From: Paramacrobiotus metropolitanus
Taxonomy: Eukaryota; Tardigrada; Eutardigrada; Parachela; Macrobiotidae
Length of the DNA: 25,583 nucleotides
Assembly: GCF_019649055.1 (NCBI RefSeq)
Contig: NW_026570630.1
Location: forward strand, 1-25,583
Direction of reading: 5' to 3'
Shown here: positions 6,857 to 25,583 of the stretch, piece by piece
Layout of the letters: every line of letters starts with the position of its first letter
Position numbering within the stretch: the stretch's first letter is position 1
Program-made: the position numbers and the translations under genes
The notes under the pieces: model-generated
Seen by the model: the letters and a program-made list of their open reading frames with translations, nothing else
Databases searched by the model: none
What the model was told of the DNA's origin: nothing

Positions 6857-9800
6857 GTAAGCTGAAATTTTCCATTTTATTGCACTCTGATTTATAGAAA
6901 TGAGCTGTAATAATAAATTATTGCGTATTTGCGATATCGTGTTTTGTCGTGCCACAGTCGTGGAGAACATAGTCATGCTGTAACAGCTGTATGCACACAC
7001 CGACGAGTAAACCACGAAGTAGTGCACAATAGGGAGCTGGACTATCACGAAAGCCATTACATACGCAATCAACCGGGCCTCACCAATCTGTACCCACTAT
7101 CCGGAAACAACTAAAGATCAAAATTACATCAGGTCAAGATTTTTTGGATTTTTGTAATTCCGTAATTTTTGCTGGCGCTTTCTTTATTGCAGTTTGTGGC
7201 GCTGTGTGTGCCCTGTATTACTTGAAATCATTGGATGGGATTAACGGTGAACAGGTTAGCCCCCCCACGTATGCTGTTCAAAGTGGTCGCCGACTGAGGT
7301 ACTTTTCGGATGGTTGGTTTCGGAAATCCAGTTTTCGAGATTTTCAAACTTTCCTTCGACTGTTCTCACTTTTTGTGAATTATTCTGTCATAGTGGTATC
7401 AGTTTAATTGCTCCTCAAATTCCTTGGCAGCAAATCCCGCGTTGAACGTGCGAAGGTGAGCAGGAATGCGCGAAGGAGCACAGAGAACTGCAGCGTCTTG
7501 ATTAGTGTGCAAATTAATAATATGGTAATTATATTATGTATATCTGGTAAAAGCTGTTGAAAATAGATGTTTTTTTCACAGTACGAAGTGTACATGTGTT
7601 TTATGATTTCATAAAAAAAATGTATAAGGATTTAGGTTGATAGAGTAGCGAGAACTATATTTGGATGTTATAAGGCAAAGAGATGAGTTCGCAATGCTTT
7701 CCTGTTTTGCAGATGGCTTTCATGTTGACGATGGACCACCTGTTGCGCGTTCGCGAGATCCATGGCCCCGTTCAACCTGGGATGGTTACAGTTTTCAAAA
7801 TAAAGTACAAATTTGGTAAGTCGCAAAAAAAACCGTAAAACCTGTTGCTGCGATTGTCGTGAAAGTTTTAGTTTTGCTTTGGAAAACAGGACGTTTTGGT
7901 TTCACGTGTGGAACGCACTGCGATTTGTTTGCAAGTCAAACATATTTGTATGAGTGGGTTTTCTGTGCGTTTGTACAAATGCGGTTGTGGTAAACTTATT
8001 AATTATCCAATTATTAGAAATACTATTTATCAATTTTTTCAAATTAGTTGCTCAAAAATATTATTAGAAGCTTGAGCCACTGTACTGCCATATTTTTCTG
8101 TCGATTGCATTGCAGGAGCTGCGTTCAGCCACTGCACTATAAGCGGCTTTTCCTGAATCTGGCGGCCCTCTAAGCGTTCCTTATTTAACACCCGTCACCG
8201 AATCCAATATCAGAAAAATTTTGTTTTTCGTCCATTAAATAAAAAACATAAGTAAATTATTATTAATTATGAATTAATTATAGATTGTTTGGATTAGTAA
8301 AAAGATATTACGCGTATCTTAATTATGGATATCTATACGTAGATAAATTAATATTATGGATAGAATAATAACAGATAATCTGCTAGAAATAAATAGATGC
8401 ATGATGATTGTATAATTAAATTTTATGTTGATCATTAATTAGTAAATCAGTTAGAAACAATTGTGAATTAGCGTCAGCATACGAGTAATTACAGAATAAA
8501 AAAAACTTGTAGCTTTTGTTTTTGTAGCCACCCACCAACCATGGCTTACAAATCAATCCACCGCGTGGGATTTTGTAGAGAACGTGGGAGCTGCCGGTTT
8601 TGGAGGTTGTTTACGAGGAGTCATCAGTGTGCGTCCGGTTAACCCTGGTCTGGTATGGCGCTCTCTGGCAGGTCAAACCCTCCACTTGTACTCGCGTGAC
8701 GACAGCCGAAGGGTATTGAGTTGGCTGATCTCTTTGCAGTAAGTACTGTACGAGCAGCGATCCTCACAAGTCGCACCGAAGAGTATTTTTTTATTATTTT
8801 TATTAAATAGGTACCATACGCTTCAAGTCGTGCGCGGGTTTGTGGAAGTCAAGCGCGTGGTGATCGGCGCGATGGACCACATGGATGGCAGCGAGGAGTT
8901 GCATCCCCCACAGATTCCGATGCTGGTGCCGGGGTTATGGCCACTGGACGGTCTCCTGGGCGAGCTCGCTCCAGGCGTTTCATGGGAGTCACTAGAAGCG
9001 CAGTTAGCTGGTTGGGATGCTGCTGGGATTGTTCCGGGTTGGATTGCGGCTTTGGGAAATGCCGCGCTGGACAACGTCGCGCTGGACAACGTCGCGCTGG
9101 ACAACGTCGCGCTGGACAACGTCGCGCTGGACAACGTCGCGCTGGACAACGTCGCGCTGGACAACGTCGCGCTGGACAACGTCGCGCTGGACAACGTCGC
9201 GCTGGACAACGTCGCGCTGGACAACGTCGCGCTGGACAACGTCGCGCTGGACAACGTCGCGCTGGACAACGTCGCGCTGGACAACGTCGCGCTGGACAAC
9301 GTCGCGCTGGACAACGTCGCGCTGGACAACGTCGCGCTGGACAACGTCGCGCTGGACAACGTCGCGCTGGACAACGTCGCGCTGGACAACGTCGCGCTGG
9401 GCAACGTCGCGCTGGGCAACGTCGCGCTGGGCAACGTCGCGCTGGACAACGTCGCGCTGGGCAACGTCGCGCTGGGCAACGTCGCGCTGGGCAACGTCGC
9501 GCTGGGCAACGTCGCGCTGGACAACGTCGCGCTGGGCAACGTCGCGCTGGGCAACGTCGCGCTGGACAACGTCGCGCTGGACAACGTCGCGCTGGACAAC
9601 GTCGCGCTGGACAACGTCGCGCTGGACAACGTCGCGCTGGACAACGTCGCGCTGGACAACGTCGCGCTGGACAACGTCGCGCTGGACAACGTCGCGCTGG
9701 ACAACGTCGCGCTGGACAACGTCGCGCTGGACAACGTCGCGCTGGACAACGTCGCGCTGGACAACGTCGCGCTGGACAACGTCGCGCTGGACAACGTCGC

Positions 9801-10386
9801 GCTGGACAACGTCGCGCTGGACAACGTCGCGCTGGGCAACGTCGCGCTGGGCAACGTCGCGCTGGACAACGTCGCGCTGGACAACGTCGCGCTGGGCAAC
9901 GTCGCGCTGGGCAACGTCGCGCTGGGCAACGTCGCGCTGGACAACGTCGCGCTGGACAACGTCGCGCTGGGCAACGTCGCGCTGGGCAATGTCGCGCTGG
10001 GCAACGTCGCGCTGGACAACGTCGCGCTGGACAACGTCGCGCTGGGCAACGTCGCGCTGGACAACGTCGCGCTGGACAACGTCGCGCTGGGCAACGTCGC
10101 GCTGGGCAACGTCGCGCTGGGCAACGTCGCGCTGGGCAACGTCGCGCTGGACAACGTCGCGCTGGACAACGTCGCGCTGGACAACGTCGCGCTGGGCAAC
10201 GTCGCGCTGGGCAACGTCGCGCTGGACAACGTCGCGCTGGGCAACGTCGCGCAGGGCAATGGGGTGCCGGATGAGAATGCCCTGATGGGGAATCCTCCAG
10301 TCGCCGACGGAGCGTTGCAAGGAGTGCAGCCTTTGGAGGCATTCGTTGGTGGGCTTCAGGTCGCCCCGTTGAATTTTCACTTGTAA
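6796..10386 (+). CDS. Five-exon gene for a protein with 80 VAL(D/G)N repeats
   Basis: Exons 6796-6856, 7193-7254, 7713-7815, 8528-8738 and 8811-10386 total 2013 nt and join without a stop into 670 residues. Intron phases are 1, 0, 1 and 2. Each intron has a GT donor (GTAAGC, GTTAGC, GTAAGT, GTAAGT) and a T-rich acceptor. The ATG has G at -3. Residues 1-229 are non-repetitive. An early hydrophobic, Cys-containing stretch (about residues 12-34) could be a signal or anchor segment. Residues 35-200 look globular and match no family I know. Residues 230-629 are the pentapeptide array, and residues 630-670 are a Gly/Pro/Leu-rich tail. The GC-rich exons contrast with AT-rich introns. Function is unknown; an extracellular or scaffolding role would be a guess. 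The second exon is the least certain because of its weak donor. Confidence 0.7.
7193..7254 (+). CDS. Exon 2 of the pentapeptide-repeat gene
   Basis: This exon of 62 nt follows the strong acceptor TTTCTTTATTGCAG. It codes for a hydrophobic start (CGAVCALYYL) and ends on a codon boundary at CAG/GTTAGC. The donor is weaker than the others, but the phase fits both neighbours exactly. Confidence 0.5.
7713..7815 (+). CDS. Exon 3 of the pentapeptide-repeat gene
   Basis: This exon of 103 nt follows CCTGTTTTGCAG and ends at GTAAGT in phase 1. It begins with ATG, so it could also serve as an alternative translation start. It codes for a Leu/Arg/Val-rich segment ending FKIKYKF. Confidence 0.65.
8528..8738 (+). 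CDS. Exon 4 of the pentapeptide-repeat gene
   Basis: This exon of 211 nt follows TTTTGTTTTTGTAG and ends at the consensus donor GTAAGT in phase 2. It is open throughout and codes for a Trp/Gly/Val-rich, apparently globular segment ending LSWLISL. The next intron is only 72 nt. Confidence 0.7.
8811..10386 (+). CDS. Exon 5: pentapeptide-repeat array and C-terminus
   Basis: This exon of 1576 nt starts with the G that completes a Gln codon across the intron. About 83 residues of unique sequence with acidic, Pro and Trp content lead into the 80-unit array at 9061. A 41-residue unique tail ends in NFHL and TAA at 10384. No frame disruption occurs over 1.2 kb of repeat, which supports both real coding and good sequence accuracy. 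Confidence 0.75.
9061..10260 (+). repeat. 15-bp minisatellite, 80 exact-length units
   Basis: The unit GTCGCGCTGGACAAC is repeated 80 times in 1200 bp with no length variation. Only one position varies commonly (A or G in the fourth codon), giving Asp in 54 units and Gly in 26. Apart from that there is a GCC first codon in unit 1, one synonymous AAT (unit 62), and a CAG plus AAT change in unit 80. Such homogeneity points to recent expansion or ongoing conversion or unequal crossing-over. All six frames are open across the array because the unit contains no stop in any frame. Confidence 0.98.
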
Positions 10387-17852: not shown

Positions 17853-18804
17853 TCACGGTATCCGAAAATTTTCCGCGTTCGTCCGGCGTTGTGGGGATGG
17901 AATGGAAACATCGACAAAAGTTAGTGTAGCAGTAGGTATGCTTAGCAACAGCGGGCTTGTGAACAATGGCTGATAGAATGGAAAAGTGCGAATATACTCC
18001 AGTGAAGCATCCAAATCATCGACCGACAGTGCACGTTTGGCCGATCTGGGCGGTAATGTACTCGTACTAATGATTTCGCGATCTGCGTTAGGTACAGCCA
18101 CTAACGAAGGCGTTTTTGACGAGGTATCGGAGCTTTCGTGCAGTGCTAGTGCATTTGCGTTTGGGAAAATAATCTGTTGCGTTGCGTCTCATTAATCGTT
18201 TGTAGAAAGAAGATTGACGAATACTTTGAACGATAGAAATCATTTCATTTAATTTTTGTTTCGTTAGCGTTGATGGTGAACAGTTAATTTGAGGTACTCT
18301 CTGCATTTCAGAATTGTTCACTGACTGAGATGGGTGCTCCTTCTCAGCAACAGACGGTGATGCCGGTGCTGTCAAATCATCGGAAATTTCGTTCAATAAG
18401 GTTTCACATAATTCAAGTTTTTGCGGAATCGTGTTCGCTAATGCGCTAGAATTTGACGAATTCAAGACGTTAGCATTTACTCTTGCAGTGCCTGCAGTTT
18501 TTATGTACGGTGTGCGTGGTTTTAAAATATCAGGTGTGCGCATTTCTTCATGTTGCTTATTTAATAATTTTTTGCATCAAGTTGCCGGGTCATCTGAGCG
18601 ACTACTGTACAAGGTATCTTCAGAGAGGCTATAGAATACGGGAAGTACATAGTTACAGCCATACGGTCCGCCTTTCCAGTAGGAACTCATTCTTTTCCAC
18701 TGGTCACTGTACAAGAAGGACATTCCTTTTCGCTCCAGCATGTTGTCAGAGGCGTACGACTGCGCCTGGTGCGTACGGTCCACACAGGACGTACTTGCAC
18801 CCAT
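17853..18804 (-). pseudogene. Unrecognised minus-strand gene, broken
   Basis: On the minus strand ATG at 18804 opens 75 codons to TGA (18579-18577). The same frame then continues another 162 codons to 18088. From about 18170 a second, overlapping frame continues with protein-like composition (ESSDTSSKTPSLVAVPNADR, then DDLDASLEYIRTFPFYQPL) to a stop at 17853. Read as one gene with an in-frame TGA and one frame change, it would give roughly 310 residues. The middle has Ser/Thr/Pro-rich low complexity and then a basic segment (SFYKRLMRRNATDYF). I do not recognise the family. It may be a decayed host gene or a transposon-borne gene. Introns instead of breaks are possible but no good splice pair was seen. 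Confidence 0.4.
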
Positions 18805-19151
18805 TGCATGCCGTTGTTGCCTCTCTCGGTGTACGTATGTGTGCTACTGCACTGTACTCATCCGCTGAAGCGGATATACGCGGCGCATACACTGAGCTAT
18901 ACTTGCTCTCTCGTTCCTCTCTCGCAGTATGATTCAGCGTTCATACGCTCGCGTTGGATTGAGTACAGTCTGCGCATCACACAGCTGATACGACTGGCCT
19001 GCAGCACGCACGTGGTTGCCGCCAGCATTCTTTCTTCAACGCCTTGACAGACACTCAAGAACCCTGTTAGCATCCACTTGTTACTTTTGGCCATACGTGC
19101 CTTTGTTCTTGCTTTCCCTGCTATCACGCAGCATTGTTCACTTTATTTGTC

Positions 19152-19205
19152 AATAAAGCACACTCGTGATCTCCTCGCCAGGGTCTGTTACATGGTAAGC
19201 AGATC
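19152..19205 (+). mobile_element. Possible 5' LTR end and primer-binding site
   Basis: AATAAA (19152-19157) is followed by a short tail ending TGTTACA at 19192 and then TGGTAAGCAGA. Many Ty3/gypsy LTRs end TGTTACA and are followed at once by a TGG-initiated primer-binding site. TGGTA-GCAGA also resembles the complement of the initiator Met tRNA 3' end with one extra A. The matching 3' LTR is outside the window and no LTR start could be fixed, so this is a proposal. Confidence 0.35.
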
Positions 19206-20704
19206 GTCTGGTTTACTTTCCCACGGAATCTTTGAAGAGACGGTGAAGGCTTCATCCAAGGAGAACTCGTCAGAAACCTTTCAGTCACTGCCAGATCGAC
19301 TGCTAAAGCAGCCGCTGCCTTGACTGGGATCAGAACAATCTTGCTGTCTTACAGCTGCGGAAAAACGAGAATCACTGAAGTGGTTCCTCCCACAGCTGGT
19401 GAGCTTGGTACTTTGTCTCTTCCACATTGAAGAGCAGAATCTCACTCCCAAACGTACGAACTTTCTTTCTCCCAACTGACGGATCAGACTCAAACGAGAG
19501 TCTGCAGCGCGAAGGATTACTCCAAATATACGGGGGCCTTCGGTTTGAACACCGACCTGCAACCCTATCCGCGGATTTCAGCACGGAAACAACGGATTTC
19601 CGACCTCGGACGGAGGAAACCGAGCAGAACCAACACTGGTAAAGTAACGGTTCTAGGTCGATTTTAGCCGAAACTAGGTCGGCTTTTCACTTTGTAGCGG
19701 TAGAAAACAATTTCTATCCGTAAATTTAAACTTTTTAACGGTTTAAAAGTAATTTCTGACGGAGAAACCAACTCGGAATTTTACTTTGGTCGAGAACCGA
19801 CCTGCAGGTCAACGAACCTGTCTAGACAGTTAGTCAAAGGCTAACCGGCAACAGGTCGAAAATTCTCTTATTTTTGGTTGCTAACGGCGTTTCGACCGCC
19901 AGAAAAATTCCTCAATTTATAAAACTTATTTCTAACGGTTAAAAATTCCGAAAATCCGACCAGATAAACTTTCTGGCCGACTAAAAATAATTTATTTTTC
20001 TACCGGAAAATAGCGCTAAAATTCTCGTACTCCCTTGTGACGTCAGAACGACCGGATTTCAGTACTGTACTGCTACCCTGCACTTGTCCATACTTTTGTA
20101 CGGTATGAGCCCACTGTACTGTAGGCGAGTGAGAGCTAAAGCCGCTCACGTTCAGTCAGCTGCCTGCAGTCTGCACGCAGTTGCAGGCCGTGTATATGAA
20201 TCGTGAACAGCGCTCATACAACGTACGTGCGCTTGCACTGCAAAATAAATGGACAAGTGCAGGGTAGCAGTACAGTACTTTAAGGGCAGCCAGTCAGCGT
20301 GCAGGGGAAAGTTCCCATAGCTTAACATAGGCGTGATTCATCGTTTTTTGTAACTTTTGCACGCGGCTCGCATTCTGTGACGTAGGCAGAAGTGCAAGAC
20401 CACTTAACCTGTTACGTCATACTGGTCAGCACAGTAGTATACGACGTACTATACCGTACTACTATTACGTACTGTACTGCACCATAGTACCGTATACTAA
20501 TACCCTGTGTACTGAGTCATCAACAGACACATCAACAACAACAACAACAACATCTCACCGAACGTTCCTGACACTCGAAAGTTCCAGAACCAAAAGAAGT
20601 TCCTGACTTCATCGAACATCTTCACATAGAAGATTGTTCGACTTTTTTTTCTCTAACTGATAAAACCTTTAAAGCTCCATCAGAGCCAACCTGGTTTGAC
20701 CACA
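19206..20704 (+). other. Long leader of the retrotransposon
   Basis: This 1.5-kb stretch before the Gag start is non-coding apart from short frames. One of 71 codons (19427-19642) has a charged, Thr/Glu-rich end but no family match. Between 19550 and 20050 it carries many GGTCG/CCGAC pentamers like those of the Gag coding region, including the 12-bp palindrome GACCTGCAGGTC (19799-19810). A CAGACTC/GAGTCTG hairpin lies at about 19480. A CAA-repeat tract (about 20531-20551) lies in the last part, as is common in translated leaders. Confidence 0.4.
20061..20279. mobile_element. 219-bp foldback element in the leader
   Basis: Sequence 20061-20091 is an exact 31-bp inverted repeat of 20249-20279, starting AGTACTGTACTGCTACCCTG. 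Further in, GTATGAGC (20103-20110) pairs with GCTCATAC (20212-20219). The whole could fold into a long hairpin. It is most simply a small inverted-repeat transposon inserted in the leader. No clear target duplication is seen, and no coding content is present. Confidence 0.7.
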
Positions 20705-21748
20705 ATGTCGAATCCCAGGGAGAACGAGTACGCCAAGAAGTACAATAAAAATTACTCGTGGCGTGCGAACACGGCCGGAACGTACTCACTCCGGTACGCC
20801 GGTCAGGAAAAGAGTCAGCCGTCCTCAACCGACTCGACTAAGTCGGCCGAAGCAAGGGAAAGGCGCAACAAACGGATCCTCTTTGCTGACTCGAATCCGA
20901 CCTCGGATGACAGTTTCGAGGACGCCAGGGATAAAACATTCTTGGACACCCAAGCTGACGAAGCAGCCCCGTGCCACCCGACCGGGGGGGATGTGGAACA
21001 GCTGCAGGCAGGGACCACATTGTCCCATGCCGACATGGAGTCGAGCTCACACAGAGCCCAAGACTCAGTAATGGCTACAAAAGCCACCGAGCTCGGACGG
21101 CAATCACCCAACAGAACGGAAGAAGTGCTGAAGCCGACTTCGTCGAACATGGACATGGCAACTGAGGAAGTTGGAGGAAAATCGCCGACCACACAGGTCG
21201 AGCGAAAATCGCCGACCAAGGAAGTCGGTAAACAACAACCGACTAGGGAAGTCGACCAACAAATGGTCGACCAACCTGCGGCAAAGGAAGTCGACCAACA
21301 GAAGGTCGACCTACCACTAACCAAACAGGTCGGACAACAATACCCGACCCCGACTGAACAGGAACAGCCGACAACGGAAGTCGGCAAAGTCCAACCGACC
21401 ACACAGGTCAAAAGCATTTCGCCAACCTTGAAAGCCGGACAACAGAAGCCGACCACGAAGGTCGGTCAACAGAAGCCGACCACGGAGGAAGCACAAAAGG
21501 AAGTCGGCAATAAGCAACCGACTAGCATGGAACACCAATCAACCGACAACAAGTCGGATGCAGGCATCCAGCCGACCAAACCGACGGCCGGAACGGAAGA
21601 TTCCGAGGTACCGCCACGAAGCGGCCCTCACCCAGCTGGATCGCCAACTAACATACCGGCACCCAACGAACGGGCCATTTCACCGTTGAGCCGACCTTCG
21701 CCACCCGGACGCGAGTCGACTCGAGTGACCGAAGCTCAAGTCGGCTAA
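20705..21748 (+). CDS. Gag N-terminal region with PT-repeat segment
   Basis: ATG at 20705 (A at -3) opens 347 codons. Residues 1-60 are basic and Tyr/Ser-rich, and 60-155 are acidic and Ser/Thr-rich. Residues about 158-275 hold roughly a dozen degenerate heptads of the type Pro-Thr-Thr-Glu-Val-Gly-x, followed by a Pro-rich end. It resembles no known domain and is probably disordered. It precedes, in the same direction, segments that clearly belong to a Ty3/gypsy Gag, so I read it as the N-terminal part of that Gag or as an extra ORF. It ends at TAA (21746-21748), while protein-like sequence goes on in another frame from about 21721. Codon choice favours CCG ACC and GTC GG, which creates many small inverted repeats. 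Confidence 0.55.
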   Translation: MSNPRENEYAKKYNKNYSWRANTAGTYSLRYAGQEKSQPSSTDSTKSAEARERRNKRILFADSNPTSDDSFEDARDKTFLDTQADEAAPCHPTGGDVEQLQAGTTLSHADMESSSHRAQDSVMATKATELGRQSPNRTEEVLKPTSSNMDMATEEVGGKSPTTQVERKSPTKEVGKQQPTREVDQQMVDQPAAKEVDQQKVDLPLTKQVGQQYPTPTEQEQPTTEVGKVQPTTQVKSISPTLKAGQQKPTTKVGQQKPTTEEAQKEVGNKQPTSMEHQSTDNKSDAGIQPTKPTAGTEDSEVPPRSGPHPAGSPTNIPAPNERAISPLSRPSPPGRESTRVTEAQVG

Positions 21749-22116
21749 GGCGACACAAAGTCGACCTGAAGATCAACTCGTCACCACATATGTTCGAACC
21801 TGGCGAACTTGGTAGTGAAAAACTCCGTCGCCAACGGATGAAGTTTTTGACGGAACAAATGCGCCAAGACCGAACAGTGCGGACGGATTCTTCACAACAC
21901 CGGTGAAGTCCCATAAGGACGGTCACGGGTACCAGGCCAGTTCACTCGAATATACAGCCAAGAAGTGGATCGCGGCTACACCGCCGGAAAAGATCGAAGA
22001 TGTCGACCTACTCCGAGCGAGATGCCGTAAACTGATCACACTGATCGTTTTGGCAGATCAAATCGTTGACTCGGCAGAAGGATCGATCCGAAACTCGGAG
22101 GAAATAGGAAAGAGAC
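21749..22116 (+). pseudogene. Gag linker segment, two frame changes
   Basis: The protein-like frame runs to TGA at 21904-21906, including a charged helical stretch (RRQRMKFLTEQMRQDR). Another frame overlaps from 21903 and continues (DLLRARCRKLITLIVLADQI) to about 22105. The reading then has to move to the frame of the ATG at 22117. Both pieces look helical and join the PT-repeat region to the coiled coil. Each change can be explained by a single-base insertion or deletion. I found no slippery heptamer at either point, so decay or assembly error is likelier than programmed shifting. Confidence 0.45.
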
Positions 22117-24600
22117 ATGGCGGATGCCAACAAATTCATCGCCACCCAACAACGGGAAATCGATCGACTTAATGCCATACTCAAACGAGTCGACCAACCG
22201 TGTCGATATGACATCGATCAAGTCGCCATACTTAATGGTAGACTTAAGCGGTCAATAGAGGCCGTCTTCAAAATCAAACGAGAACTCGAAGAGTCGCAGA
22301 AGGCGCTCGGAGAGGCACAGAAGGACTTGGCCGATGTACAAACGGCATTGGTCGCCTTGGAAATGGCAGCAGGAGCATTCCACCAGCAACTCAACTTGGC
22401 CAACGAAGAAGCCGAGCTCTATCGAAACGAAGTCGATAGATACGTGGTGGAAATCAAAAAAGCCGACAACGAAATCGACCGGTTAACGCGCTTAACCGAC
22501 CAACTGAAGCTGGAAATGGAAATCCTTTTCGCGAGAATGGGACGGCAGTACATTGACTACCATAACTCAGCAACTCCCAACCGGGGGGCAGCTGATGCCG
22601 ACCTGGTCGAAGCGAACGCTCAACTAGTTGAGCAAGTCCATGGACTGAACGATGTCCTCAAGTAGGAACAGAAACTCCGAACTCAGCTGGAGTACAGCTT
22701 GGTGGAAGCACAAAAGGTAAACGAGGCGCCACAAAGTCGCATCGTTTACCTGGAGGCCCGCGAAGTCGAATTATATGACTTCGGCGAACAGGCTGCCCGC
22801 AACATCACAGAGATGATGCGGCAGATGGATGAGATGGATACCGAAACACGGTGTCTGAGGGAGGAGAAAAAGCACCTGGAACAAAGCCGGACTGAACCCC
22901 CCTCGTATCGAACATCCATGGCACAGGAATACCCGTCGCGAACGATAAGCGACATCCTGTGGAGCAGTAACCCGACCCAGGAAATGGTAAAGAAGGAGAA
23001 CAACACCTCCTACTTTGTCGGAGTCGTAACAACCGACCCGAGTGTGGGAACAATCCCACAACCACCGACCATACCGAGTGCTTCGGAACCGGAACACAAC
23101 ACGTCGGCCGCGACACCACAAGTGGCAACGTCGAACGTGGCGACAACAACGTCGGCCGGGGCAGATACAAGCACCTCGTACGCGACGCGGACAACAACGC
23201 ACGCGCCGGTACCTAATGCATTCAGCCCGAGCAATGCATCGAGAGGAGATCGGACAACAGATTCCATACGTCTTCCAATCCCGCTACCGAGACCTGGCGC
23301 ATACGCATATCGCCCACCAAGGACGAACTCAAACCCGAACATGGGTAACCTACCCCGCCAGAACTCGCCGTTCGACTTTGAACGAGTACGGACTCGGTCG
23401 TTTAACCCGACCGACCAGCGACAGGAAGGATACAACGGGGAACAGTCGACTCGGTATCCGGAGAACAACTCCGACCAACAAGGTCGGACGCCTCCAAACC
23501 GACCTACACAAGGTCGGATGCCGGCTCAGAGAACACAGCCCAACCGGTACGGAAGAGTCTACGAACAACCGAGTGGATTCTATCCGCCGCCGCCGAGACA
23601 AAATCGAGCGCCACCTCCACAACAGAACCATTATGGAGGTCAGCTGGAACAGCCTCGTTACGGACACCAGGCTCAGGCACCGCATCCGCAACAGGACGGA
23701 TATGATGACTTGTACAAACCGGCTTGTCATCAAGAGGCATACGAAGACCAACAAGGTCAGATGCCGTACGCTAACCCGCCACCCGCCCCGGCTGCACAAC
23801 AAGTTGCGCCGGCGGCACACCCGATTCATCCGGAACTGGACCCGGCACACGTTGCCTTGGTACGAGCAAAGGCCCACGGACACAGGCAACCTATGCCGCC
23901 GTTCGATGGCGACCACACTGAGCTCCATGGGTGGCTGAAACAAATCCGAAGCCTGCATCGTCAAGCCCAACAATGGTACGAGGACGACCAGACTTTCATG
24001 TCCGACTTGGCGGTCAAACTCAAGGGCCAAGCGGAGGAATGGCACACTCTGACAGCTGCCGAAGAACCGCTCGGCGGATGGCCAGTCAACTTATGGCTGA
24101 CCAAGTTTGAGGAGCGAATTGCGGACAAAAACAAGGAAGTGAACATGATATCACTAATCAACAAACGGATATTCCGTTTCGGCGAAGAAACGCCGGAACA
24201 GTACTACGACGCAATGATGTTCATGAAGTCCCAAGTCCCCACAGTCACCGATCAGATAATCCTGTACCACCTCAAGGAGAACATCCACGAACCCAAACTA
24301 AGGGAAGCCCCGGAAATCAGGATGCCAGCGACGCCAATCGAGTTCCGCGACTACTTACGGAGCTTCGTTAACGGCAAAGAGATGTATGAGGTGCGAAAAC
24401 TACGCGAAGGCGACTACATCCGAGTTCGAGCAGCAACACCTGCACCTGCTCCAACTCCGCCACCGGCGATACCGCAACAGACCGGATATCAGCCACATAT
24501 GATGCCGGGATATCAAACTCCGACGGCACAGTACGGACAATTGAGTCCGGCGCCAATGCCACCGGTGCAACAGGCACCAGTCCAACCACCGACTTGGGCT
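22117..24600 (+). pseudogene. Gag coiled coil and capsid domain, with in-frame TAG
   Basis: From ATG at 22117 about 180 codons form heptad-rich coiled coil (Glu, Lys, Leu, Gln spacing) up to TAG at 22663-22665. The same frame continues beyond the stop with more coiled coil to about 22900. A Pro/Gln/Tyr/Arg-rich linker follows (about 23050-23870). The capsid-like retrotransposon Gag domain is at about 23886-24370. It opens with PPFDGDHTELHGWLKQI, has Trp-containing helices (LKGQAEEWHTL, WLTKFEERI) and ends near FRDYLRSF. In Ty3/gypsy elements this domain assembles the particle around the RNA. The frame itself runs to TAG at 24703, but the protein-like reading moves to another frame near 24590. 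Gag is placed in the cytoplasm by family knowledge. The TAG could come from one C-to-T change of a Gln codon. Confidence 0.75.
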
Positions 24601-25012
24601 GGAACGGTAGCGGCGAACCGGAATTCCCGGCACCTGGAACTGGAGCCCCCGTTAACAACTACGGAGGCCCAGGTTATAGCGTGGGTGGTAACCAAAACAA
24701 CATAGGTTTTGGTTATAACCAGAACCCTAACTAGGGATACTCCGCATACGGCCAGTATCTTACACAAGGATACGGGGGAGGAGGCTTTGGTCGCGGAAGA
24801 GGACGCGGCGGCGGGAATCGCGGCCGTGGCAACTTCCCTAACCGCGGCGGAGGCGGCGGCTCACAAGGCAACCGATCTCCCCAGGCACAACAAGGTGCTC
24901 GGCAAGCGACAACGTACGTCGACAAGATGGAGGCAGCCTTCTTCCAATGGACGAAGGACAAGACCTTCTCATGCAAACACTGATGTTCAACAACCATGAC
25001 GAGTCACGCTGC
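24591..25012 (+). pseudogene. Gag nucleocapsid-like region: RGG stretch and split CCHC knuckle
   Basis: In the frame of 24591 the reading is Gly/Asn/Tyr-rich. It has a TAG at 24732-24734 and then a strong RGG-type stretch (FGRGRGRGGGNRGRG) at about 24780-24830, and it stops at TGA 24981-24983. The first Cys of a zinc knuckle is at 24972. The remaining His (24995) and Cys (25010) are in another frame. Their spacing fits Cys-x2-Cys-x4-His-x4-Cys if one base is missing in the second Cys codon at 24981-24982. Both RGG stretches and CCHC knuckles bind RNA in Gag proteins. Function is predicted lost in this copy. Confidence 0.65.
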
Positions 25013-25079
25013 ATATACGGATCAGCTGACAATCCGAATCTTCGACTGGTACGACGACTGGTAACGCCGATACTCGACG

Positions 25080-25343
25080 GATGGCCCGATTGGCTCGGTC
25101 AATCCATTTTGGAGAAACATCGTGCCGCCATTACGCCCTCGCCAGCAACAGGCTGGTGGCTCGGGTAGCTCTGGCAACGGAAACCGGTCGCCCGGCCAAG
25201 AAAACGGCGGAAACCACAGGAATAGCGGAGGGAATCAACAAGGTTCCCCGGCATACAGAGAACCGTTGCCGCCCCGCCAGTCGTTGAACTCGACGCCACC
25301 CAACAATGGGCTGGCTCGGGGCAACTCCCCGGGAAACGTTTAA
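25080..25343 (+). CDS. Gag C-terminal tail, zero frame at the frameshift site
   Basis: After another frame change near 25060-25080 the reading settles into a Gly/Asn/Gln/Ser/Pro-rich tail (GSGSSGNGNRSPGQ, then NSGGNQQGSPAYREPL). It ends at TAA 25341-25343, three bases after the slippery heptamer codons. It has no recognisable domain. Its register over the heptamer (CCG GGA AAC GTT TAA) is exactly that needed for a -1 shift into the Pol frame. Confidence 0.55.
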   Translation, partial: DGPIGSVNPFWRNIVPPLRPRQQQAGGSGSSGNGNRSPGQENGGNHRNSGGNQQGSPAYREPLPPRQSLNSTPPNNGLARGNSPGNV

Positions 25344-25398
25344 GGTCGATGAGTTCCGGTGACTCAATCGACCTCCAACATCCCACCGAACCACCGGA
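25331..25398 (+). promoter_or_regulatory. Programmed -1 ribosomal frameshift signal (heptamer plus pseudoknot)
   Basis: The heptamer GGGAAAC (25331-25337) is in the X-XXY-YYZ register of the Gag frame. A 6-nt spacer GTTTAA contains the Gag stop. A stem follows: 25344-25354 pairs with 25362-25373 (11 bp with one bulged A at 25366), enclosing the 7-nt loop TCCGGTG (25355-25361). CACCGGA at 25392-25398 is fully complementary to that loop, so an H-type pseudoknot can form. The heptamer is one used by known retroviruses. The -1 frame is open from 25169 to the window end. All parts are seen directly; activity is inferred. Confidence 0.85.
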
Positions 25399-25583
25399 CA
25401 AGGATAACCCGACTAACCAACCGCTTACTTACCGGAACGAACTGAACTTCCCCATAACGGTCGAGGAAGGCACTCAACAGGTAGAAGCCATCTTCCAATT
25501 ACTCGGACTGAATGAAAATAGTTCCGAGGACGACTTCGCAAAAGCGATGTCGACCTCCACAGAAGAGGCGGAGACGGCTCGGA
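25338..25583 (+). CDS. Start of the Pol frame, cut by the window edge
   Basis: The frame entered after a -1 shift is open from the heptamer to the last base. It includes an ATG at 25349 (MSSGDSIDLQHPTEPPDKDN) and is rich in Asp, Glu, Pro and Thr. No protease active-site motif (Asp-Ser/Thr-Gly) is reached before the edge, so the call rests on position after a Gag frame and on the frameshift signal. Pol in Ty3/gypsy elements would carry protease, reverse transcriptase, RNase H and integrase in that order. Confidence 0.6.

Follow-up and report, generated by a model that had tools for sequence, protein, structure and literature searches.

Of 51 animal retroelements covered by a 2003 survey, 28 had pol in the -1 frame, and a classical slippery heptamer was present in many (PMC5009743). 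The mammalian gene PEG10, derived from a Ty3/Gypsy element, has the heptamer GGGAAAC followed by a short spacer and a 3' pseudoknot (PMC2800197). For tardigrades, a literature search in one library returned no paper pairing 'tardigrade' with 'ribosomal frameshifting', and the main text of a paper on tardigrade transposons (PMC11071193) does not use the term 'frameshift'.

We analyzed an entire contig of the tardigrade Paramacrobiotus metropolitanus (25,583 nt; hereafter the window), which carries near its end the heptamer GGGAAAC, a 6-nt spacer, a bulged stem and a loop complementary to a site downstream. Like the signals described for animal LTR retrotransposons, it combines a tandem-slip heptamer with a Pol frame that follows Gag in the -1 register (PMC5009743). 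The signal sequence, the reading frames at the boundary, a single in-register heptamer, conservation among copies and paired changes between families are the basis on which we regard it as very probably a signal for programmed -1 ribosomal frameshifting in a large Ty3/Gypsy-like LTR retrotransposon; from them we infer both the shift and the knot.

The element carrying the signal

The element is truncated by the end of the contig, before the protease. Its probable 5' LTR occupies 18744-19192 on the forward strand, with a sharp start (homology to other places begins at about 18743/18744) and an approximate end. Several places match only query positions 445-893 (about 18744-19192), a pattern to be expected of solo or 3' LTRs; it is by this homology pattern that the 5' LTR is placed, and the 3' LTR of the window copy lies outside the contig. 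Aligning the start of another copy with its end gave no LTR pair, the piece compared having ended short of the 3' LTR. The LTR is followed by a leader, by a broken Gag region starting at about 20657 (20657-25343, forward strand) and by 84 codons of the -1 frame after the heptamer (25331-25582, forward strand, open to the window end), with the protease and later domains past the contig end. As the first-pass annotation had stated, the Gag of this copy is broken. It has several frames and stops, and the signal is a relic lacking a complete Gag upstream. A pattern search for the CCHC zinc knuckle found none in the Gag of the window copy. A DNA search for other copies scored 40 of 173 candidate places, the window included, the others being 81-90% identical; the knuckle pattern occurs within 700 nt upstream in 34 of these 40, in the zero frame in the seven hits printed. 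In one copy (C205), the frame homologous to Gag is open for about 1,550 codons. A profile scan of the window's -1 frame found no Pol domain, so the Gag-Pol boundary can be demonstrated only from other copies.

The domain order in other copies is protease, RT, RNase H and integrase (PF13975; PF00078, PF17919, PF17917; PF17921, PF00665). An aspartic protease lies in the -1 frame at codons 360-450 past the heptamer in all three copies scanned, RT and RNase H lie farther downstream in two copies scanned, and integrase was found in one of these two. Two frames in the region after integrase (L041:5101-6231 and L044:4728-6164) had no Pfam match. Among the best 120 of 4678 hits, the RT relatives that bear a name include ones labelled transposon 297 or 412. 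No relative in viral contigs was confirmed. Judged by these sequence features, the element is a large Ty3/Gypsy-like LTR retrotransposon that has decayed in the window.

A stretch of about 900 codons between protease and RT in L004 and L041 (contig C41) had no Pfam match in the frames scanned, and Pol would thus be unusually long for a Gypsy element. A first look for RT_RNaseH_2 in the same genome gave 1043 candidates, 150 of them scored, which suggests a very large population of Gypsy-like elements. Of the 7991 candidates scored in a search with a 556-aa Gag piece from another copy, a single one reached E ≤ 0.001; it is a predicted P. metropolitanus protein of 372 aa. This match speaks for a tardigrade host over a nematode one; a search for SL1 gave no hit, but as the controls gave none either it carries no weight. 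Against the window's genome, residues 160-372 of this protein match several places at 95-98% identity and residues 1-205 match at up to 87%. The public 372-aa protein ends in G-N-A, as GGA AAC GCC followed by TAA would give, and the annotated gene therefore appears to end at the spacer stop. A public Paramacrobiotus protein, P0122 ('basic salivary proline-rich protein 2-like'), resembles the Gag of a related copy, has a CCHC knuckle and terminates at the spacer stop.

Other features of the window include an insert of about 210 bp (20061-20279) with long perfect terminal inverted repeats and AGTACT on both flanks, a MITE-like element within the leader that is missing in the copies compared. A 15-bp minisatellite (9063-10252; about 79 copies, 98% matches) sits in a 547-aa open frame that reads as NVALD and NVALG repeats, and part of the Gag region (22108-22665) is coiled-coil-like, with a weak BRE1 match below the cut-off.

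Signal architecture and reading frames at the boundary

The heptamer GGGAAAC lies at 25331-25337 of the window, read G_GGA_AAC in the register of the upstream zero frame, and is followed by the 6-nt spacer GTTTAA (25338-25343), within which the zero-frame TAA occupies 25341-25343. Stem 1 pairs 25344-25354 with 25362-25373, leaving a single unpaired A (25366 or 25367, which are equivalent). The 7-nt loop enclosed by these arms (25355-25361), which would be the 5' strand of stem 2, is the exact complement of 25392-25398, its 3' strand, from which stem 1 is separated by an 18-nt loop 3 (25374-25391; all features on the forward strand). Heptamer, register, spacer with its zero-frame stop, bulged stem and loop complement had been annotated correctly to the base. 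The 73-nt stretch folds at -24.7 kcal/mol (z = -3.45, with 1 of 200 shuffles equally good), values that refer to the nested structure only and leave the knot unscored. In an Rfam scan no family exceeded its cut-off (one match, E = 1).

A ribosome translating Gag would reach G_GGA_AAC with GGA in the P site and AAC in the A site, where it would be held by RNA folded 6 nt downstream into an H-type pseudoknot. The predicted knot has a bulged stem 1 of 10 bp, lengthened to 11 bp in the window and some other copies; stem 2 has 4-7 bp, loops 1 and 3 measure 1 and 18 nt, and a single A lies at the junction. A fraction of the ribosomes would re-pair on GGG and AAA and continue in the -1 frame through protease and Pol, producing Gag-Pol; the remainder would terminate 1 to 4 codons past the heptamer and yield Gag.

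The 11-bp stem with a single bulge that was first described belongs to the window copy. The eleventh pair (25354-25362) is absent in 39 of the 40 scored places (C.A in 38, C.C in one), which have 10 bp and an open top. By closing the stem, this pair, and with it the 11-bp/7-nt geometry, would leave no nucleotide for loop 1 in the window. The signal was labelled a 'retroviral arrangement'; the element that carries it is a Ty3/Gypsy-like LTR retrotransposon rather than a proven retrovirus. With its 10-bp stem 1 and open C.A top, the form present in most copies leaves a single nucleotide each for loop 1 and for the junction (an A in 38 places), as we would expect of a real H-type knot.

Simple stems are enough for some known frameshift signals. 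The heptamer and stem 1 might therefore stimulate frameshifting alone, the loop complement being a coincidental coding match that forms no functional knot, a reading that we consider unlikely. The real window contains 220 heptamers on its two strands; a stem of at least 10 pairs follows five of them, and only the one at 25331 also has a loop complement of at least 5 nt. Across 6000 dinucleotide shuffles of 18744-25583, which contained 163,459 heptamers, a stem of at least 10 pairs was combined with a complement of at least 7 nt in 18 cases and with one of at least 6 nt in 98. The chance expectation for the longer complement is about 0.02 per 220 heptamers, a frame-boundary position not yet being demanded, and this scarcity argues against a coincidental match.

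Frames in the other copies bear out the placement of a -1 signal at the Gag-Pol boundary, as do its conservation and the paired changes in family C described below. The heptamer is intact in 34 of the 40 scored places, window included; in the other six, AAAC is preceded by TGG, AAG, CGG (two places) or CCG (two places). In 14 of the 40 the zero frame runs without a stop for 549 codons or more before the heptamer, and in 19 the -1 frame does so for 583 codons or more past it; nine places have both long frames, seven of them with GGGAAAC. L009 and L016 have a changed heptamer yet long open frames on either side, so general decay does not explain the change. The overlap between Gag and the -1 frame of Pol measures exactly 25 nt in 32 of the 40 places, and GGGAAAC is the sole in-register X_XXY_YYZ heptamer in 30 of these 32, the remaining two having none. 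The earlier suggestion that related copies may be active would fit the open frames in some copies.

Copy L082 (family B, contig C25 near 1211451) has Gag in the Pol frame, as a single 3543-codon frame in which the heptamer is retained; at least one copy would thus not need the shift. The first-pass annotation had named loss of the heptamer or stem, or a frame shared by Gag and Pol, as evidence against a signal, and the copies include both the six changed heptamers and this single frame, alongside the intact majority. The C25 copy would suit a scheme in which Gag and Pol are joined otherwise, through a single frame in working copies or through splicing, with the split frames a product of decay. 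We find this scarcely credible, given that the split falls at the identical base in copies with long frames on both sides, in two families. Nor can reading through the stop lead into Pol, whose frame is a different one.

Further families were sought through RNase H matches lacking the exact hairpin, and 12 boundary pieces were compared: seven belong to family C (L090-L096), two to family B and one is nearer to family A, while two (L079, L081) have no match to the element. By blastn on 1.3 kb, similarity between families C and A is almost confined to the surroundings of the signal, the best matches being 75% over 76 nt or 69% over 84-87 nt. Family C retains the heptamer, the 6-nt spacer, the bulged stem and the 18-nt loop 3. 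Its zero frame is open to the heptamer with a stop at +10 nt in all seven pieces, and its -1 frame is open to the end of the piece in six.

Placing the zero-frame stop in the spacer, as was first done, is right for the window and for other subfamilies: the TAA recurs in all seven family C pieces and in L082 and L089. The window differs in this from its nearest copies, which stop 9 nt past the spacer position, inside stem 1, at a TGA (25350-25352, forward strand) that is the first zero-frame stop past the heptamer in 38 of the 40 scored places. A 21-base pattern matches 259 places with at most 3 mismatches (reversed-pattern control, 1), and in this search, which demanded the spacer TAA, the TAA was without mismatch in all of the best 100 of the 259 matches. 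The spacer stop of the window is thus established elsewhere in the wider family, and it is the nearest large subfamily that stands apart. The idea that the spacer TAA is a private mutation of the window copy was rejected because other subfamilies carry TAA at the same place.

At 25349-25352 the window reads AUGA, a -1-frame ATG overlapping a zero-frame TGA. In 35 of the 40 scored places this TGA (+19) is the first zero-frame stop and the overlapping ATG (+18) the first in the -1 frame. Such an arrangement favours termination-reinitiation, in which Gag would end at the TGA and the same ribosome, held by the hairpin, would restart at the Pol-frame AUG and make a separate Pol. We judge this highly improbable. 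The first -1-frame ATG of family C lies 96-111 nt downstream in all seven pieces, the ATG is absent in L101 and L105-L107, which retain the heptamer and stem, and reinitiation leaves unexplained why an in-register heptamer falls within the 19-28 nt overlap in five of the seven family C pieces. Frameshifting and reinitiation may also coexist in the subfamily that has AUGA in stem 1 instead of the spacer stop, with heptamer and knot intact, the former providing Gag-Pol and the latter free Pol; we hold this to be very unlikely. If true, the AUGA subfamily would have been caught moving between decoding modes, with sister families in the same genome that are frameshift-only.

The frameshift claim rests on the boundary and the protease. 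In 33 same-strand heptamer/RNase H pairs, 3.9-4.9 kb apart (62 of 150 scored RNase H rows typed against at least 174 distinct heptamer places), RNase H falls in the -1 frame in 12 cases, the zero frame in 10 and the third frame in 11. The 12 of 33 is at chance level and does not favour one continuous Pol frame; indels over 4-5 kb in decayed copies are the likely cause. A hand-picked set, in which RNase H was in the -1 frame in 6 of 7, had been taken as support and was dropped after this wider count. Of the RT pieces in four longer loci, those of L041 and L045 are in the -1 frame, as is one of three pieces in L043, and that of L044 is in the zero frame. In L045 both the RT piece and the stretch ahead of it are in the -1 frame. 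A single continuous Pol frame is plausible; given L045, nothing demands a second frame change between protease and RT, and decay is the likely explanation of the other frames. In several family C copies the distance from heptamer to RNase H is 4060 (zero frame), and in others it is 4059 (-1 frame).

Conservation and paired changes

The diversity profile was computed from 38 copies (window, L017 and L040 left out). Mean pairwise diversity is 0.015 for the 75-nt signal versus 0.086 across 2.7 kb, with 0.46% of 75-nt intervals as low. By part, diversity is 0.000 in both arms of stem 1 and in the 3' strand of stem 2, 0.015 in the 5' strand of stem 2, 0.022 in loop 3, 0.025 in the heptamer and 0.076 in the spacer. 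The zero value for the 3' strand of stem 2 is a further point against a merely coincidental loop complement. Third positions of Pol have a diversity of 0.025 in the signal versus 0.202 at offsets 81-299 and 0.125 at 300-1499; 31 of 457 downstream intervals of 16 third positions are as invariant as that of the signal, so the low value backs, rather than proves, an RNA constraint. Over 404 nt, the window copy itself shares just 83-90% identity with the others. Within the signal it departs from L004 at 6 of 68 positions, which lie in the spacer, the top pair, the bulge and loop 3, and this rate is about the same. 'Recent decay', which had been read from the intact signal, does not follow.

Base pairs were tabulated in 69 rows, 43 of them distinct; L080 (family B) was dropped, as indels interrupt its signal, and 20 of the 69 rows were selected for matching GGGAAAC, making the table uninformative on heptamer conservation. 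Stem 1 has 9 or 10 of its 10 pairs in every row (9 in four), with L017, L089, L097 and L107 each breaking one pair. Among the 43 distinct rows, the nine fixed pairs of stem 1 are standard in 99.0% of cells, compared with 22-55% for slid partners; row shuffles gave a mean of 97.4%, and none of 2000 reached the observed value. Pairs altered on both sides are not exceptionally numerous, 1965 of 2000 row shuffles reaching the observed count. Loop 3 is 18 nt long in 67 of the 69 rows and 17 nt in two, the 3' strand being placed by pattern.

Between families A and C, stem 1 pair 6 changes from A-U to G-C (G-U is also present) and pair 7 from U-A to G-C, with the bulge shifted by one base. Pair 5 goes from G-C to G-U in some pieces, and the top pair from C.A to U-A. 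In stem 2, pair 6 changes from U-A to C-G and pair 2 from C-G to U-G, and pairs 1 and 7 are lost. The alignment for compensatory changes that the first-pass annotation had proposed gives a positive answer for stem 1, where pairs 6 and 7 are doubly changed, and a mixed one for stem 2, with one double change and lost outer pairs. At its core this covariation amounts to a single deep split, with double changes that match and some G-U forms besides, and counts of this kind are inflated by related rows.

Stem 2 has its full seven pairs in the window; of the 39 other scored places, 38 have them too. In family C it is reduced to four or five of seven pairs, which counts for a stimulator made of stem 1 alone; it keeps four in L101 and five in L103. 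The pairs that remain point the other way. In the 43 distinct rows, 264 of 301 stem 2 cells are paired versus a shuffle mean of 255.9 (0 of 2000 as high). Pairs 4 and 5 are standard in all 43 rows, against 40 rows for pair 3 and 42 for pair 6, which appears as U-A 32 times and as C-G 10 times. At pair 2, seven rows carry a U-G instead of a break, and four are broken. The frameshift signal with a predicted pseudoknot remains our preferred reading.

Comparison with known frameshift systems

The locus would extend the documented retroelement frameshift signals to a tardigrade. The mechanism proposed is ordinary, and the value of the system lies in the material: 259 related sites in a single animal genome that vary in heptamer, spacer, bulge and both stems. 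Such natural variants could show what stem 2, loop 1 and the position of the stop each contribute to -1 frameshifting.

Compared with the signals of animal LTR retrotransposons, the host here belongs to the Tardigrada and the predicted knot is backed by related families in one genome. The element differs from them also in its Gag of about 1,550 codons and in the roughly 900 codons between protease and RT. The likeness to PEG10 lies in GGGAAAC, a short spacer and a 3' pseudoknot, which is a predicted one here; in PEG10, a domesticated gene, the spacer measures 5 nt (PMC2800197), whereas the element described here is multicopy and has a spacer of 6 nt. With knots of the IBV type the predicted structure shares a long stem 1 of near one helical turn, and with those of the MMTV/SRV-1 type one unpaired A where the two stems meet, comparable to their wedge A (PMC5009743). 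Unlike either, the knot predicted here would unite both features, and would add to them a bulge in stem 1.
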